Shown one piece after another: positions 11,233-30,790 of a stretch of DNA of 64,000 bases. The notes below the pieces were generated by a model. That model ran no database searches. It was not told where the DNA came from and was given only the letters and a program-made list of their open reading frames with translations. Position numbers and translations under genes: made by a program. The stretch covers positions 62,001 to 126,000 of the forward strand of contig CACWPM010000012.1 in the NCBI GenBank assembly GCA_902762795.1, written 5' to 3'. The stretch comes from Fibrobacter succinogenes. GTDB lineage: Bacteria; Fibrobacterota; Fibrobacteria; Fibrobacterales; Fibrobacteraceae. Positions within the stretch are counted from its first letter, which is position 1. Each line of letters begins with the position of its first letter.

Positions 11233-11766
11233 ATGTTTTACAAACACTGGAAAAAGATATCGCTTGCTTTGACCGCATTTTTTTGGTCCAGCTGTAACAA
11301 CGCGACTACCACGGAACCGCCCCTTTACGGAGTGCAGCCCGACATTTCCAGCAGTTCAGCAGCTCCAGTATCCAGTGCGATAGAATCGAGTTCCAGCGAA
11401 ACGACCGCAAAATCATCTTCAAGCAATCAGGCACAAAGCTCCAGCAGCGAAGATAAAATTTCAAGCAGTTCTGAGCCAATGCCTATGCCCGCCTACGGAG
11501 TCGAAATGCATTGCGAAGTCGTCTCGGAACAGGATTCCACGATTACATGCGAAAACGGCAACACCTGCACAAAAAAAGTAACATTACGACTCAATCCCGA
11601 TTACGAAGGTCACCCTTGCCTAACCCACGATCCTGAAAAAGAAAAAAGAGGAATTATAGAAGTCTGCCCTGATTACGGAGTCATATATTACAGTGACACA
11701 AAATACGAATGCAGCGATGGCATCACCTACGATGAAAACACGTTTAAGAAGCATTATAAAAATTAA
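11233..11766 (+). CDS. rSAM-associated Ser-linker lipoprotein 1
   Basis: 177 residues. The leader MFYKHWKKISLALTAFFWSSC gives Cys21 as lipid site. It is followed by PLYGV, a poly-Ser linker (~residues 30-80), then a Cys-rich end with two further YGV motifs (MPAYGVEMHC, CPDYGV) and a final YECSDGITYDENTFKKHYKN. The KHW leader, YGV motifs and CxDG end recur in the next genes, so they form one paralogous family placed beside a radical SAM enzyme; I infer they are its substrates. GGGAG five to seven bases ahead supports this ATG rather than an earlier in-frame start at 11218. First gene of the run. Confidence 0.8.
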   Translation: MFYKHWKKISLALTAFFWSSCNNATTTEPPLYGVQPDISSSSAAPVSSAIESSSSETTAKSSSSNQAQSSSSEDKISSSSEPMPMPAYGVEMHCEVVSEQDSTITCENGNTCTKKVTLRLNPDYEGHPCLTHDPEKEKRGIIEVCPDYGVIYYSDTKYECSDGITYDENTFKKHYKN

Positions 11767-11855
11767 TAAAGCAATTAGTTATTAGTAAACAGGGCGGTAA
11801 AGCCGCGATTATAATTCCTAACCACTAACCACCAACCACTTCCTAACACCTAAAA
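11767..11855. repeat. Heptamer spacer between lipoprotein genes 1 and 2
   Basis: From about 11816 it reads as consecutive degenerate heptamers (CCTAACC ACTAACC ACCAACC ...) up to the next ATG, with no Shine-Dalgarno. The first half has a small CG-rich hairpin (GGCGGTAAAGCCGC). Confidence 0.6.
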
Positions 11856-12557
11856 ATGAACATCCGCAAGCACTTAAAAAATCTTTTGCTCACGACTACA
11901 GCCCTCTTCTGGGCTAGCTGCTCGAGCGAAAACGACAGCACGTTTCCGACTATCGGTCAGGACACGCCGCCCGCTGTTGATCACGGAGCAAGTTCCGACA
12001 GCAATATCGAAAGCTCTAGCGAAAACGCAGCCGAAAGCAGTTCTTCCGAAGCCAATGCGCCAAGTTCCAGCAGCGAGTTTACGCAAGTTATCAATCCAGA
12101 AGAATCGTCTAGTTCCGCAGCAGAAAGTTCCAGCAGTCAAGTATCTTGCATGATTGACGGAAACTCGTTCTTTTACAAGGACAGAAGCGAAAAATACACA
12201 GAAAGTCAAGCGATTTCCCATGCAACCACACAAGTCCAATGGGACGCTGCTAAAAAAATCGGATTAATGATCCAAAACGACCTTAAGTCAAAAGGAGTCC
12301 CCCAATGCCTTCAAGACATGCAAGACTCTCTCGAAAGAAGTTTTGTTGCATTATATGGAGCCCCGGGCACACCTATCCCAAGTCAATACACATGCAGCGA
12401 CGGCACTACGCGCCCAACAAAGGAATACCTCGAACAGCAGAAATTTGACGAAGAACAAGCAAAGAAAAAGCCTCAATACGACGAAAAATACAATGAGGTT
12501 TACAAAGAAGAGACCGAAAAATTCAACAAAAAAATCAATGATTGCTTGGGACAATAA
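11856..12557 (+). CDS. rSAM-associated Ser-linker lipoprotein 2
   Basis: 233 residues. Leader MNIRKHLKNLLLTTTALFWASC gives Cys22 as lipid site, followed by a linker rich in Ser, Glu and Ala (~residues 45-97). The mature part has few Cys, a charged helical region, an FVALYGAPGTP segment (YGA rather than YGV) and YTCSDGTTRPTKEYLEQQ near the end, aligned with the CxDG end of its paralogues. Its first ~90 codons are nearly identical in DNA to those of the next gene, a recent duplication. No Shine-Dalgarno; preceded by heptamer spacer. Likely envelope-anchored; function unknown, proposed rSAM substrate. Confidence 0.78.
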   Translation: MNIRKHLKNLLLTTTALFWASCSSENDSTFPTIGQDTPPAVDHGASSDSNIESSSENAAESSSSEANAPSSSSEFTQVINPEESSSSAAESSSSQVSCMIDGNSFFYKDRSEKYTESQAISHATTQVQWDAAKKIGLMIQNDLKSKGVPQCLQDMQDSLERSFVALYGAPGTPIPSQYTCSDGTTRPTKEYLEQQKFDEEQAKKKPQYDEKYNEVYKEETEKFNKKINDCLGQ

Positions 12558-12658
12558 CAGCCAGAACTTAAACATACAACCAAACACCTACCACCTAAAA
12601 CCTATAGCCTAATCACAAATCACTTCCTACCGACAACTTCCTACTTCCGACTTTAATT
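12558..12658. repeat. Heptamer spacer between lipoprotein genes 2 and 3
   Basis: Degenerate heptamers (ACCTACC ACCTAAA ACCTATA GCCTAAT, later CTTCCTA) fill most of the 101 bases; no ribosome site before the ATG at 12659. Confidence 0.6.
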
Positions 12659-13870
12659 ATGAACATCCGCAAGCACTGGAAAAACCTCTTGCTCACGACG
12701 ACGGCCCTCTTTTGGGCAAACTGCACAAGCGAAAACGACAGCACGTTCCCGACAATCGGTCAGGACACGCCACCCGCTGTTGATCCCGGAGCAAGTTCCG
12801 ACAGCAATATCGAAAGTTCTAGCGAAAACGCAGCCGAAAGCAGTTCATCCGAAACCAAAGCCCCAAGTTCCAACAGCGCTGCTGAGCCCAGTTCCAGTAG
12901 TTTAAATCCTAACGTCTACAGACTTGCAAGCAATCCAAGCGTCACTTGCACATCAAGCTATATCAATGGAGGCAAATGCCTCGACGATGATGACGCCAAA
13001 AGCAACAAAGAAGCAATTCAAAGAAAAATCGACGAGTACAAAAAAACAGTTGAAGAAAACCAGACTCTGACATTGAAACAGCTCGACTCACTCGAAGAAA
13101 AAATAAACGCAAATCTAAAAGAATGGCTTGATGCTGACTATAAAGCGTATAGAACACCCAAATCTCATTGTACACATGTAGATCCTGGAACGTTGGTATA
13201 TAATTGTTCAAACAACAAAAGCCATGAAGCCAGTACATTAGTAACCGATTACGACAATCATATTCTCTATACAAAAGAAGAACACAGAGCACAATTTCCT
13301 GAAAAATATCAATCCAGTTCAAGTTCGGAGCCGGAATCCAGCAGCAGCGCCACGCCTCCATCTCCGCTTTGTCAAAAAAGCGATTTTACCACAGAAGCCG
13401 ATTTCAATAAAGCGTGGGAAGATGACAAAAAAGAGCTTTTAGACATCGCCAAGAAAGAACTCGGAACAAACCTTGCAGAAAAAGACTCTATTTGCCTTGA
13501 CCGCGTAGAACGCACTTATTGGTCTCCATCCACAGATGTTATTGCTAAAAAGCAAACCTGCGACGGCGAAACAGTCGTGAATCCGCGCTATCAACAGGAA
13601 CTCGACTCACTCAAAGCATCGGTAAAAAAAATAATCGACAAATGTATAGAATATTCAAAAATAGAACAAATCGCATGTGATATCAGCGCGATGTGCCCCG
13701 AATACGGCGTAGATTCTAAATGCACTTATAAATACAGCTGCAATGACGGTCTTTCATGTCGAAGAACTGAAGGCGAACGCGATTTGAATTGCAGCAACAA
13801 GCAAGGCGAAAATTTCAAATACACCCAAGAGGAATTCGAAAAGAAATATTATACGAAATGCCGTTATTAG
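12659..13870 (+). CDS. rSAM-associated Ser-linker lipoprotein 3 (long form)
   Basis: 403 residues, the largest of the set. Same leader type (MNIRKHWKNLLLTTTALFWANC, Cys22) and the same TIGQDTPPAVDPGASSDSN linker start as gene 2. Two poly-Ser linkers (~residues 55-85 and ~220-235) separate three Cys-containing segments. The last holds CPEYGVDSKCTYKYSCNDG and ends FKYTQEEFEKKYYTKCRY, which closely matches the end of gene 5. The two-linker layout suggests fusion of two ancestral lipoproteins without the second leader. No Shine-Dalgarno. Proposed multi-site substrate of the adjacent radical SAM enzyme. Confidence 0.8.
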   Translation: MNIRKHWKNLLLTTTALFWANCTSENDSTFPTIGQDTPPAVDPGASSDSNIESSSENAAESSSSETKAPSSNSAAEPSSSSLNPNVYRLASNPSVTCTSSYINGGKCLDDDDAKSNKEAIQRKIDEYKKTVEENQTLTLKQLDSLEEKINANLKEWLDADYKAYRTPKSHCTHVDPGTLVYNCSNNKSHEASTLVTDYDNHILYTKEEHRAQFPEKYQSSSSSEPESSSSATPPSPLCQKSDFTTEADFNKAWEDDKKELLDIAKKELGTNLAEKDSICLDRVERTYWSPSTDVIAKKQTCDGETVVNPRYQQELDSLKASVKKIIDKCIEYSKIEQIACDISAMCPEYGVDSKCTYKYSCNDGLSCRRTEGERDLNCSNKQGENFKYTQEEFEKKYYTKCRY

Positions 13871-13927
13871 TCAATAGTCATTGGTCCACACCCCTACAAC
13901 CTATTACCTAAAACCTACAACCTAATT
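13871..13927. repeat. Heptamer spacer between lipoprotein genes 3 and 4
   Basis: CCTATTA CCTAAAA CCTACAA CCTAATT runs directly into the ATG at 13928. This spacer is part of an 86-bp block (13898-13983) repeated exactly at 14395-14480. Confidence 0.7.
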
Positions 13928-14362
13928 ATGTACAAGCACTGGAAAAAAATCGCACTTGCAATCGCAGCATTCTTTTGGAACGGTTGCGATGATTCTTCAT
14001 CGACGCCAAATGATTCAGCTCTCTGCGAATACGGAGTCGAAGTACCCGAAGAATCCAGTTCAAGTTCAACTCCGACTTCATCAAGTTCCAGCAAAGAACC
14101 AATAGAGTGTATGCTTAGCACCATGATTTTCGACACCATCGAGTGCGGTCACTACTCGACAACCTATAATTATTTCAATTGCGATGACGGATTTGAATGT
14201 AGCCATACTCCAGAATGCGACAGCAAAATTTATTGCACAGATAAACAAGGCCATAAAACTTCTTACACCGTAGAAGAATTTTATACTAAATATTCGACGC
14301 AAAACGGATACTGCGAAAAATTGGCTTCAGGCGAAAAAATATGCATTCTATCTAATCACTAA
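13928..14362 (+). CDS. rSAM-associated Ser-linker lipoprotein 4
   Basis: 144 residues. Leader MYKHWKKIALAIAAFFWNGC, Cys20 lipidated. CEYGVEVPEE comes before a short poly-Ser linker; the mature end is Cys-rich: FNCDDGFEC, CDSKIYCTDKQGHK and YTVEEFYTKYSTQNGYC, matching the shared end pattern CxDGxxC ... C.D.QG ... EEF. Its first 56 coding bases and the spacer before it are exactly duplicated in gene 5. Proposed envelope lipoprotein and rSAM substrate; no independent function visible. Confidence 0.8.
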   Translation: MYKHWKKIALAIAAFFWNGCDDSSSTPNDSALCEYGVEVPEESSSSSTPTSSSSSKEPIECMLSTMIFDTIECGHYSTTYNYFNCDDGFECSHTPECDSKIYCTDKQGHKTSYTVEEFYTKYSTQNGYCEKLASGEKICILSNH

Positions 14363-14424
14363 CCACCAACCACTCCCCACCACCTACCACCTAAAACCTA
14401 TTACCTAAAACCTACAACCTAATT
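14363..14424. repeat. Heptamer spacer between lipoprotein genes 4 and 5
   Basis: ACCACCA ACCACTC ... CCTAAAA CCTATTA CCTAAAA CCTACAA CCTAATT leads into the ATG at 14425; part of the exact 86-bp duplication. Confidence 0.7.
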
Positions 14425-14784
14425 ATGTACAAGCACTGGAAAAAAATCGCACTTGCAATCGCAGCATTCTTTTGGAACGGCTGTAGCGACAACTCGTCAT
14501 CGAGTGACGTAAAATACGCATGCTCCCTTAAGGTAGGAGTTTGTCCCGAATATGGAGTTGATTTCTACTATTGCGAAAATCCAGAAGATTACCAATCCCC
14601 AGACATGAACAAAAAATGTACATTCACTCCTCGTGACCCATGCTCCAATTATTACGAATGTGAAGATGGGGCCACCTGTACAACATACGATAATGAAACA
14701 ATTATGAGATGCATCGATGCTCAAGGCAACCAAATTACCCAAGAGGAATTCGAAAAGAATTATTATGAGGAAAACCGTTACTAG
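14425..14784 (+). CDS. rSAM-associated lipoprotein 5 (short, Cys-rich)
   Basis: 119 residues. Same leader as gene 4, Cys20 lipidated, with only a short SSSS linker. The mature part is the clearest form of the shared module: VGVCPEYGVDFYYC, YECEDGATC, MRCIDAQGNQITQEEFEKNY and a terminal ENRY, with eight Cys. It lies directly before the radical SAM gene. Even Cys number would allow disulfides in the periplasm; alternatively YGV/Cys are modification sites. Short, but leader, module and duplication show it is a real gene. Confidence 0.8.
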   Translation: MYKHWKKIALAIAAFFWNGCSDNSSSSDVKYACSLKVGVCPEYGVDFYYCENPEDYQSPDMNKKCTFTPRDPCSNYYECEDGATCTTYDNETIMRCIDAQGNQITQEEFEKNYYEENRY

Positions 14785-14928
14785 TTTAGTTATTAGTCAA
14801 TAGTCAATGAAAGTGGTTAGTAAACAGGAATGTAAAAGGAACGTTCTTATCGCAATCCTAGCCACTAAACACAAACCACCAACCACCCTTATCCACTACA
14901 ACCTATTACCTAAGCCCTATAACCTATT
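14785..14928. repeat. Heptamer-rich spacer before the radical SAM gene
   Basis: TTAGTTA TTAGTCA ATAGTCA in the first part and CCTATTA CCTAAGC CCTATAA CCTATT at the end, again running into the ATG. No terminator hairpin, so transcription from the lipoprotein genes can read into the enzyme gene. Confidence 0.6.
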
Positions 14929-16005
14929 ATGAAACTCTCTCTCAAAAAGAAACTCGCTCTCGAAGCTTACCGCCTTTACCGCCACAACGAAATCAAGGCG
15001 CACCCGCTGACTTACTTTTTCTGGGAATGTACGCTGCGCTGCAATTTGCACTGCCTGCACTGCGGTAGCGACTGCGTGAAAGATGCCATCCCGGACATGC
15101 CCCGCGAAGACTTCATGAACGTACTCGACAAGCTCGCCCCGCACATTGACCCCAAACGCTTCATCGTGGTGATTACCGGCGGCGAACCACTCATGCGCCC
15201 CGACCTCGAAGAATGCGGTCAAGAAATCAAGAAACGCGGCTATCCCTGGGGCATGGTCACGAACGGACTTGCAATGACGCCCGAACGCTACACGCGACTC
15301 CTGAACGCAGGGCTGCGTTCGCTCACCATCAGCCTCGACGGCCTCGAAGCGAACCACAACCATTTCCGTGGCGACCCGCATAGCTTTGAACGCGCCCTCC
15401 GCGCCATCGACATGGCCGCCCATACCGATGGCCTCACTTTCGACGTGATGACTTGCGTAAACCGAGAAAACCTGAAGGAACTTCCGAAAATTCTCGACTT
15501 GCTTTTGAAAATCGGCGTGAAACGTTGGCGTGTCGCGACCGTGTTTCCGAAAGGACGTGCGAAAGACAATCCTCTGTTCCAGATGACAAACCAGGAATTC
15601 CGTCAAGTGTTCGACTTCATCCGTGAAGTGAAAAAGCTGAACGTCATTAACGTGAACTACGGCTGCGAAGGCTTCCTCGGCAGCTACGAAAAAGACGCTC
15701 GCAACTACCCGTTCTTCTGCCGTGCCGGCGTGAACGTATCCTCTGTGCTTTGCGATGGCAGCATCTCGGCATGCCCGAGCCTGCGCGGCGACTACATCCA
15801 GGGTAACATCTACAAAGACGACCTGTGGGATGTATGGCAGAACCGCTACCAGGTGATGCGCGACCACAGTTGGGCTAAAATCGGCGACTGCAAAAAATGC
15901 AAATACTGGCGCTACTGCGAAGGCTCCAGCTTGCACCTCCGTGATGAAAAGACGAAGGAATTAGCTTACTGCCATGTAGCGAGATTAGAAGCTGCTGGAG
16001 CGTAA
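14929..16005 (+). CDS. Radical SAM/SPASM enzyme of the rSAM/lipoprotein system
   Basis: 358 residues. The radical SAM [4Fe-4S] motif CNLHCLHC is at 38-45, with extra Cys at 34 and 49; GGEPLMRPDLEECG is the SAM-binding GGE block. The C-terminal SPASM region is complete: FFCRAGVNVSSVLCDGSISACPS, then CKKCKYWRYCEGSSLHLRD and a last Cys in AYCHV. Overall wording (YFFWECTLRC, GYPWGMVTNG, NVNYGCEGFLGSYE) agrees closely with my recollection of the TIGR04133 radical SAM family of Bacteroidetes, which is encoded beside small lipoproteins (TIGR04134). SPASM proteins usually modify ribosomal peptides. It acts in the cytoplasm, so any modification should precede export of the neighbours. Confidence 0.9.
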   Translation: MKLSLKKKLALEAYRLYRHNEIKAHPLTYFFWECTLRCNLHCLHCGSDCVKDAIPDMPREDFMNVLDKLAPHIDPKRFIVVITGGEPLMRPDLEECGQEIKKRGYPWGMVTNGLAMTPERYTRLLNAGLRSLTISLDGLEANHNHFRGDPHSFERALRAIDMAAHTDGLTFDVMTCVNRENLKELPKILDLLLKIGVKRWRVATVFPKGRAKDNPLFQMTNQEFRQVFDFIREVKKLNVINVNYGCEGFLGSYEKDARNYPFFCRAGVNVSSVLCDGSISACPSLRGDYIQGNIYKDDLWDVWQNRYQVMRDHSWAKIGDCKKCKYWRYCEGSSLHLRDEKTKELAYCHVARLEAAGA

Positions 16006-16066
16006 ATTCTTAAGTTCGAAGGAAAAGTATCCAGTCAAGTCCTAAACAAAAAGGAGAAGTTTATTT

Positions 16067-16585
16067 ATGATTTCATTTATCCGCAAGCATTGGGGAAACC
16101 TGGCTTTCGCCCTTGCCTCTTTCCTTTGGGCGGGGTGCACCGACGATGCGCAGCCCATGTATGGAGTCGTTCAAGCTCCAAACGAAAGTTCCAGCAGTTC
16201 CGTCGAATCTAGCAGTTCTGTAGCATCCAGCAGCTCTGTAACGTCAAGCTCTAGCGAAGGTATTCCGCGTATGTCAGCAACCGAATACGGCATCATGCCC
16301 GTCGATTGCTACACCACCTCCGTAAAAGATAGCAAAGGCACTTCTTATGATATTTTCGAATGCGACAACGGAAGGAGATTCCTTAAAAATTACCGCGTTT
16401 ACTCGGATAACGTAAAAGAAAAACTTCCCAACGACATTCTGTGGAGCGAACCATACCAAGGCGTCGAAGGCAAAAACTGCAACTTCAACGGAACTCCTCT
16501 TTGCGTGGATAAGGTGGACAAGCAAGGGCGCCGTAGCGGAGGATGCAGACCCACCATCGAATGTCCTTACAAGTCCGAAGATTAG
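16067..16585 (+). CDS. rSAM-associated Ser-linker lipoprotein 6
   Basis: 172 residues. Leader ends LASFLWAGC (Cys24), then QPMYGVVQAPNE, a poly-Ser linker (~residues 41-64) and ATEYGIMPVDC. The mature domain has FECDNGRRF, the equivalent of the CxDG motif, and a CNFNGTPLC ... CRPTIEC tail, but not the EEFEKxYY end. It is the only copy after the enzyme gene and, like gene 1, has a good Shine-Dalgarno (AAGGAG). The MYGV-after-lipobox arrangement is the one most like the Bacteroidetes partners. Proposed substrate of the radical SAM enzyme. Confidence 0.8.
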   Translation: MISFIRKHWGNLAFALASFLWAGCTDDAQPMYGVVQAPNESSSSSVESSSSVASSSSVTSSSSEGIPRMSATEYGIMPVDCYTTSVKDSKGTSYDIFECDNGRRFLKNYRVYSDNVKEKLPNDILWSEPYQGVEGKNCNFNGTPLCVDKVDKQGRRSGGCRPTIECPYKSED

Positions 16586-16637: not shown

Positions 16638-16672
16638 GCGCCCGGTTCACAAAGAACCGAGCGTCTTTTATT
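16638..16672. terminator. Bidirectional terminator
   Basis: Stem GCGCCCGGTTC / GAACCGAGCGT with an A-run before and TTTTATTTT after; ends the rSAM/lipoprotein run and the converging lipoprotein gene. Confidence 0.85.
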
Positions 16673-30142: not shown

Positions 30143-30170
30143 TATAGGTTACAGGTTATAGGTTTTAGGT
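30143..30170. repeat. AGGTTAT heptamer run
   Basis: ATAGGTT ACAGGTT ATAGGTT TTAGGT upstream of the LysE-like gene. The inverse form (CCTACTA CCTAAAA CCTAAC) lies at 30246-30266 before the next gene's stop. Confidence 0.75.
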
Positions 30171-30273
30171 TCGTCAAGTAGCATAATTCAGCATAAGATT
30201 TGCGAACTTATCGAACTACACCAACTTTAGCAGAGATTATATTCCTAACCCCTACTACCTAAAACCTAACTCC

Positions 30274-30654
30274 TTATAGTTTACTCAAGAACGCGTCCAC
30301 GTCGAGGTCTGCAAGGTCTTTTTGCAGAGAATCAAGCACATCATCCGTAATCGCAGTGTGATTCTGCTCACGTTCGTCGGCACGGGCATTCGATACATCG
30401 ACTAGCTTTTTGAGAGCATTGGCAACCTCGCCCACAGTGCCGTCCTGGCGCATCACGACGTTCAAAACCTTCGAAAGCCTCTGACGCAATTTGGCAAACT
30501 CTTCGCGGTCAAGCTCAGATACTTCCCCGTGATAGCACATCAAGGGAGTCTGGCACCTTGCACACGGAAATACCATCATATTCGAGAAATCTCCGTCTAC
30601 CTGGACCTTAAATTTCGTTCCGCAATGCGGGCATTCGATATCCATTTCACTCAT
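30274..30654 (-). CDS. Small zinc-ribbon protein of unknown function
   Basis: 126 residues. The N-terminus has two Cys pairs, CPHC (residues 8-11) and CARC (31-34), spaced as in MJ0042/zinc-ribbon sensor-like domains. The remainder is helical and acidic (LAKLRQRLSKVLNVVMRQDG, later DVLDSLQKDLADLDVDAFLSKL). No membrane segment. It probably binds Zn through the four Cys and acts as a small regulatory or adaptor protein; role not deducible. Single gene between heptamer-bearing gaps. Confidence 0.75.
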   Translation of the reverse strand: MSEMDIECPHCGTKFKVQVDGDFSNMMVFPCARCQTPLMCYHGEVSELDREEFAKLRQRLSKVLNVVMRQDGTVGEVANALKKLVDVSNARADEREQNHTAITDDVLDSLQKDLADLDVDAFLSKL

Positions 30655-30755
30655 ATTCTAAAATCTAGAATTTTTTTCAATTCCTAGCCAAATACAGCAA
30701 CAATATTTTATCTTTGCACAGTCCATCTCGTTTTGCGCTCTCGCTATATTTTTTC

Positions 30756-30790
30756 CTATTACCTAAAACCTATTACCTAAAACCTAAAAT
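30756..30790. repeat. CCTAAAA heptamer run before mraY
   Basis: CCTATTA CCTAAAA CCTATTA CCTAAAA CCTAAAA runs into the mraY ATG with no Shine-Dalgarno. Confidence 0.8.

Follow-up and report, generated by a model that had tools for sequence, protein, structure and literature searches.

The 64,000-nucleotide stretch of Fibrobacter succinogenes DNA analyzed here (contig CACWPM010000012.1; hereafter, the window) carries a run of seven same-strand open reading frames (ORFs) at 11233-16585, which encode lipoproteins 1 to 5, a radical S-adenosylmethionine (SAM)/SPASM enzyme, and lipoprotein 6. We propose that this locus probably encodes a splicease-like enzyme together with its dedicated lipoprotein substrates, and that its chemistry is of the type performed by PlpXY, which excises tyramine at an X-Tyr-Gly (XYG) motif (PMC10533398). 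An earlier note on this DNA had described five lipoproteins, the enzyme, and a sixth lipoprotein running in one direction, and all seven ORFs are found in that place and on that strand. The lipoproteins listed below are placed by ORF, signal, and motif, the XYG sites by motif position, the enzyme by profile match, Cys conservation, and an AlphaFold model, and the hairpin by a terminator scan.

11233-11766, + strand: lipoprotein 1, 177 amino acids, three XYG sites (PLYGV, PAYGV, PDYGV)
11323-11331, + strand: XYG site L-Y-G of lipoprotein 1
11491-11499, + strand: XYG site A-Y-G of lipoprotein 1, also in the 12-sequence domain alignment
11671-11679, + strand: XYG site D-Y-G of lipoprotein 1, also in the 12-sequence domain alignment
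11856-12557, + strand: lipoprotein 2, 233 amino acids, one XYG site (ALYGA)
12351-12359, + strand: XYG site L-Y-G of lipoprotein 2
12659-13870, + strand: lipoprotein 3, 403 amino acids, one XYG site (PEYGV)
13700-13708, + strand: XYG site E-Y-G of lipoprotein 3
13928-14362, + strand: lipoprotein 4, 144 amino acids, one XYG site (CEYGV)
14027-14035, + strand: XYG site E-Y-G of lipoprotein 4
14425-14784, + strand: lipoprotein 5, 119 amino acids, one XYG site (PEYGV)
14548-14556, + strand: XYG site E-Y-G of lipoprotein 5
14929-16005, + strand: radical SAM/SPASM enzyme, TIGR04133, 358 amino acids
16067-16585, + strand: lipoprotein 6, 172 amino acids, two XYG sites (PMYGV, TEYGI)
16157-16165, + strand: XYG site M-Y-G of lipoprotein 6
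16283-16291, + strand: XYG site E-Y-G of lipoprotein 6
16639-16663, no strand (bidirectional): terminator-like hairpin closing the run

XYG enrichment in the linked lipoproteins

All six lipoproteins of the window share one type of signal (KHWKK...FFWxxC; hereafter, the KHW signal), and all six contain XYG followed by Val, Ile, or Ala, at nine sites altogether. The earlier note had portrayed the lipoproteins as multiplied, poly-Ser, and Cys rich, which agrees with the six genes, their Ser-rich linkers, and their 5 to 16 Cys residues per protein. Searches of Pfam and NCBIfam returned no meaningful or convincing named family for any of the six. A C-x-D-G-x-x-Y lipoprotein domain, for which a Kazal-like reading was considered, gave a poor AlphaFold model (predicted local distance difference test [pLDDT] score, 66).

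We assembled a test set of 148 ORFs that were called as lipoproteins by rule and are chained to TIGR04133 enzymes in Fibrobacterota; the set was selected without using XYG and includes a handful of false lipoproteins. YG occurs 368 times in these ORFs, compared with 86.1 in composition shuffles, although many of the sequences are related, so the counts are not independent events. At least one YG is present in 136 of the 148 ORFs (59.7 expected), and GY, FG, YA, and YS all fall below expectation. The window lipoproteins taken alone contain nine YG against 2.8 expected; nine was reached in 28 of 20,000 shuffles, and YG appeared in all six proteins at once in 71 of 20,000.

The recurrent string in a side-by-side listing of partners is x-[PA]-X-Tyr-Gly-[Val/Ile/Pro/Ala]. 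Where the sequence reads [PA]x(aromatic)G[VIP], Tyr fills the aromatic position in 191 cases and Phe, Trp, or His in none, even though Phe is more than half as abundant as Tyr in the linked lipoproteins. Gly follows Tyr in 191 of 207 contexts, and the residue after Gly is nearly always V, I, A, P, C, or T. The X position is free: across 210 distinct contexts, it is Leu in 91, Lys in 29, Glu in 24, Asp in 18, Val in 13, Ala in 8, Met in 7, and other residues in fewer. The same pattern is seen in orthologues. In aligned orthologue groups, conservation reaches 95% or more in 9 of 12 YG columns, compared with 148 of 670 other columns, and at both sites of the lipoprotein 1 domain, Tyr and Gly are invariant in 12 diverged sequences while X varies. 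A single protein may hold as many as six or seven copies. XYG is thus strongly enriched, and specific for Tyr and Gly, in these predicted lipoproteins.

The same motif could serve another radical chemistry, namely, a cyclophane joining the Tyr ring to the residue after Gly, a Tyr ether or thioether to Cys, or epimerization. A cyclophane requires a beta-carbon C-H, which the post-Gly residue nearly always has; many of the putative substrates are rich in Cys; and SuiB and SkfB, which are SPASM enzymes of the general peptide-modifying kind, are among the solved folds nearest to the enzyme. Synthases of three-residue cyclophanes (triceptides) are also radical SAM/SPASM enzymes that act on short aromatic-containing motifs. 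However, the known cyclophane synthases accept several aromatic residues and a varied middle residue, and no such tolerance appears here, where the motif has Tyr only and a near-invariant Gly. This specificity would fit an excision dependent on the phenol and speaks against cyclophane synthases, and XYG is precisely what the published splicease reaction requires. We therefore regard these other chemistries as unlikely, though not negligibly so.

The enzyme and its probable relationship to spliceases

The earlier note had likened the enzyme to TIGR04133, and this family, not an unrelated SPASM family, is its best match: the score of 619 bits is well over the cut-off of 425, and the alignment spans positions 1 to 350 of 350. 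The TIGR04133 model (rSAM_w_lipo) is of the kind "hypoth_equivalog" and has no assigned reaction. Matches to Pfam Radical_SAM and SPASM give the enzyme the architecture of a PlpX-type splicease. Its CxxxCxxC motif comprises C38, C42, and C45. Across 70 homologues, C264, C282, C321, C324, C330, and C348 are invariant, as is C246, an extra Cys of the SPASM region. AlphaFold models the enzyme with high confidence (pLDDT, 92), and the solved folds nearest to the model are the SPASM enzymes SuiB, SkfB, BlsE, PqqE, and anSME, most of which modify peptides.

We evaluated the kinship of the enzyme with a maximum-likelihood tree, built without the PlpX sequence and with a limited choice of outgroups. 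TIGR04133 falls on one side together with enzymes resembling TIGR04103 (nif11-class maturase 3; IPR026482), which we take to be the family of PlpX, and TIGR04053, AhbD, and other enzymes fall on the opposite side (support, 97/87). The TIGR04133 and TIGR04103-like enzymes also have in common a CxAG...CPSL...GNI layout around their SPASM cysteines. TIGR04133 thus appears to be a relative of the TIGR04103-like enzymes and not a member of that group. An XYG-motif ORF lies beside the enzyme in 12 of 13 TIGR04103-like loci of another phylum and in 8 of 8 of those in Fibrobacter, and VVRPLYGVFI and IAIAMYGVVF are two of the sites. In large genomes of the other phylum (L234 to L237 and L226 to L230), the neighbors of the TIGR04103-like enzymes are XYG proteins or short peptides with a GG leader, the latter carrying KYGIPP or IYGLPPPP close to the end.

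The likeness to PlpX and PlpY, which produce spliceotides in Pleurocapsa, extends to the putative substrates, which may carry several XYG sites and in which X is preceded by Pro or Ala and Gly is followed by a hydrophobic residue. The natural sites of PlpXY are MYG and LYG, and the tested splicease tags include PIRPLYGLPI and GAVAAGYGVVFPG (PMC10533398); sites in Fibrobacter partners, VVPLYGIEPI and IAAKYGVIRP among them, share this layout. One precursor may undergo several XYG-directed events (PMC10373908), and PlpXY can act without the leader (PMC10533398). The systems differ in that the putative window substrates are exported lipoproteins, whereas those of PlpX are Nif11-leader peptides. 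The splicease reaction has been reported across bacteria (PMC10373908; PMC11117315), and PMC10533398 quotes a figure of 939 predicted systems. We found no paper naming TIGR04133 or TIGR04134 in the literature searched, and a survey of ribosomally synthesized and post-translationally modified peptides (RiPPs) in Bacteroidales mentions neither lipoproteins nor spliceases. The TIGR04133 family may possibly have been described already in a splicease survey (Scott et al. 2022, Chem).

A TIGR04103-like system is present in the same genome (G000:C27:83688-84692; L223:6765-7547), with orthologues at L213 to L220 and L225. It resembles the window locus in placing a radical SAM/SPASM enzyme beside an XYG-bearing protein, but the enzyme is of a different subfamily and the partner is not a lipoprotein. 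The partner contains 11 YG sites, mostly K-Y-G, and its relatives have up to 21. Its N-terminus is weakly chagasin-like, with a Pfam match in one orthologue (E = 0.016), none in the protein of this genome, and none in a profile search of the PDB. The similarity is weak and unconfirmed, so we treat it only as a lead.

Partner genes across Fibrobacterota and Bacteroidota

TIGR04133 enzymes scoring over the cut-off are present in 89 of 168 Fibrobacterota genomes and in 71 of 80 genomes of the window's own genus, and many Fibrobacterota genomes contain two paralogues. A scan of named genomes retrieved at least 581 relatives, and about half of the best 80 belong to Bacteroidota. Within the genus, the window enzyme and its orthologues share about 93 to 98% identity, while the linked lipoproteins diverge widely in length and content outside the signal and the motif. 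The window's genome encodes a second TIGR04133 enzyme, 83% identical (G000:C1:6304-7353; L048:6292-10133), with three KHW-signal lipoproteins that also carry XYG, and two other Fibrobacter loci (L106 and L107) combine about 13 lipoproteins with two enzymes. Linkage of enzyme and lipoprotein, for which the earlier note had suggested a co-occurrence check, is conserved across Fibrobacterota and Bacteroidota.

In NCBIfam, TIGR04133 and TIGR04134 form an "rSAM/lipoprotein system," which the window locus resembles in having an enzyme over the cut-off and adjacent lipoprotein genes. A search of the six window lipoproteins against the TIGR04134 hidden Markov model (cut-off, 39.8 bits), as proposed in the earlier note, gave no match at E ≤ 1. 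The window proteins thus lack similarity to TIGR04134 and differ also in being multiplied, Ser rich, and Cys rich. They are alike in the motif: the TIGR04134 proteins examined carry XYG, there after the lipobox Cys. Elsewhere in the same genome, TIGR04134 matches are weak and do not reach the cut-off, and those inspected showed no XYG partner.

All 41 Bacteroidota and Neomarinimicrobiota loci encode an XYG protein next to the enzyme, with at most one gene in between. In partners of the Bacteroidota type, XYG usually follows the lipobox Cys directly (EYGTP, EYGVP), and in some tiny lipoproteins of this type, such as one ending NNPIAMYGVRPTQK, it is the only recognizable feature. The description of a single lipoprotein per enzyme in Bacteroidetes does not hold generally, as two or three are present at L155, L168, L170, L172, L176, and L185. 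Two enzyme-adjacent, TIGR04134-like paralogues (L168:4551-4979 and L172:4566-4991) lack both XYG and the conserved n-region of the signal. They were considered as XYG exceptions and dismissed, since the next gene upstream carries both.

The partners of distant Fibrobacterota are of several types. The enzyme-adjacent gene encodes a TIGR04134 lipoprotein at L050 and L064; at L066 (9146-9961), it is a TIGR04134 match with a type IX secretion system (T9SS) tail, an XYG site, and no evident lipobox; and at L063 and L067 (L067:10174-10947), it is a secreted XYG protein with a T9SS-like tail. The route of surface anchoring has apparently changed within one radical SAM system at L066 and L067. Every flank that can be read contains XYG, the contigs of L051 and L057 leaving too little flank, and the motif is kept across all partner types, that of Fibrobacter included.

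We also sought KHW-signal lipoproteins away from the enzyme, by DNA pattern only. The pattern occurs at just the two enzyme loci in the window's genome, and unlinked instances were found in G063, G104, and G136, all of which are enzyme positive and all with XYG. None was seen by this pattern in the near-complete, enzyme-negative Fibrobacter genomes G088 and G091. That the KHW signal tracks with the enzyme and that the n-region is lost in the XYG-less paralogues suggest that the signal region takes part in recognition.

These comparisons bear on two further explanations. XYG might be only a recognition or structural element, with the enzyme modifying the signal region or residues outside the motif (e.g., Cys or Ser). 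The strong conservation of the signal n-region and its tracking with the enzyme system would accord with this, as would the Cys columns, 29 of 33 of which are conserved at 95%. However, Cys-rich domains, poly-Ser, and the lipobox are not common to partners in other lineages (e.g., L063, L065, and L067), whereas XYG is, and its repetition within proteins is expected of sites of action, which makes this explanation improbable. Alternatively, the lipoproteins might not be substrates at all, the neighborhood and YG being coincidental to a separate envelope function. In line with this, the intergenic spacing permits separate transcripts. Against this stand a linkage maintained in two phyla with unrelated partner folds and a lipoprotein type not found in the enzyme-negative genomes examined, and we consider mere coincidence very improbable.

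Organization of the gene run

Successive ORFs are separated, in order, by 89, 101, 57, 62, 144, and 61 bases. The earlier note had called the run free of terminators until 16638. The closing hairpin is found just beyond this position, and the sole hairpin within the run on the coding strand is a weak, 5-pair one at 11794-11806. With this one weak internal hairpin and the closing hairpin, a single transcript for the seven genes is plausible, although terminator-like sites in the whole scan are no more numerous than in shuffles.

Intergenic 7-base tandem arrays (ACCTAAA/ACCTACA and the like) are located at 11818-11840, 12570-12612, 13893-13925, 14382-14422, and 14862-14887. They precede lipoprotein and enzyme genes, and a clear Shine-Dalgarno sequence was not seen there. 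Elsewhere in the window, the ACCTA pattern occurs only near 30159-30786 (10 matches against 0.15 expected).

A proposed model for backbone editing of surface lipoproteins

Under our preferred explanation, the splicease-like enzyme would bind each lipoprotein in the cytoplasm through the signal region and XYG, with the conserved signal region (KHWKK...) possibly doubling as a docking or leader element. Tyramine would be excised at each XYG site, and the edited lipoprotein would then be exported, lipidated, and displayed. Each mature protein would present an electrophilic ketoamide, or several of them, on a Ser-rich stalk exposed at the surface of the cell. The earlier note had the enzyme modifying the lipoproteins with a chemistry left unknown. 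The family assignment and the linkage favor the first part, and because XYG is conserved and Tyr specific, the chemistry need not stay unknown: the motif points to a named reaction, the excision of tyramine.

Ketoamides trap Ser and Cys proteases covalently and reversibly, and the edited lipoproteins could act in this way. X (Leu, Lys, Glu, Asp, Val, Ala, or Met) would be the P1 residue and the preceding Pro or Ala P2, so that the sites would resemble inhibitor loops, and the variety at X would cover several types of protease. Potent protease inhibition is known to be conferred by beta-residues (PMC10373908; PMC11117315). As a tentative and rather doubtful extension, backbone editing may arm whole lipoprotein families as multiheaded ketoamide protease inhibitors with varied P1 residues, Ser-rich stalks, and the signal peptide as leader, throughout Fibrobacterota and Bacteroidota and in parallel with the chagasin-like XYG-repeat system. 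A surface ketone might also serve in other ways, for instance by cross-linking to amines.

Several observations weigh against a splicease assignment. Four of 117 lipoproteins with the KHW signal lack the XYG motif, and some enzyme-adjacent KHW-signal lipoproteins have no YG (e.g., L074_9754 and L105_6783). The SPASM region differs from that of PlpX by one Cys: the final Cys of CX2CX5CX3C is absent (C330-EGSS) and C246 is extra, which is not the textbook arrangement, contrary to the "full SPASM Cys set" of the earlier note. PlpX works with PlpY, and nothing resembling PlpY was noticed among the genes next to the enzyme, though no search specific to RiPP recognition elements was made. The next-best NCBIfam models are TIGR04103 (139 bits), TIGR04053 (139 bits), and AhbD (138 bits), which lie within two bits of each other, so scores alone do not decide the kinship. 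The probable kinship to PlpX then rests on the one tree. Control loci of TIGR04053 and AhbD also have a motif ORF in 8 of 17 cases, nearly all inside large unrelated proteins. The putative modification is deduced entirely from sequence, and the possible role as covalent protease traps is a weaker suggestion still. The cut-off of TIGR04103 (725 bits) is missed but the tree groups both families, and our claim is therefore that the enzyme probably works like a splicease.

Most Fibrobacter genomes encode a TIGR04133 enzyme, as do many Bacteroidota from the rumen, the gut, and other habitats. The family is thus widespread but chemically unassigned, and the window locus exemplifies it well. If the partners are splicease substrates, backbone editing would be common on surface lipoproteins, beyond small peptide natural products. 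The loss of tyramine (C8H9NO) would then shift the mass by about -135.07 Da per XYG, a one-number signature for existing Fibrobacter envelope proteomes, which would also explain why standard searches would miss peptides spanning XYG sites. A rumen bacterium would, in that case, display surface proteins with reactive, rewritten backbones.

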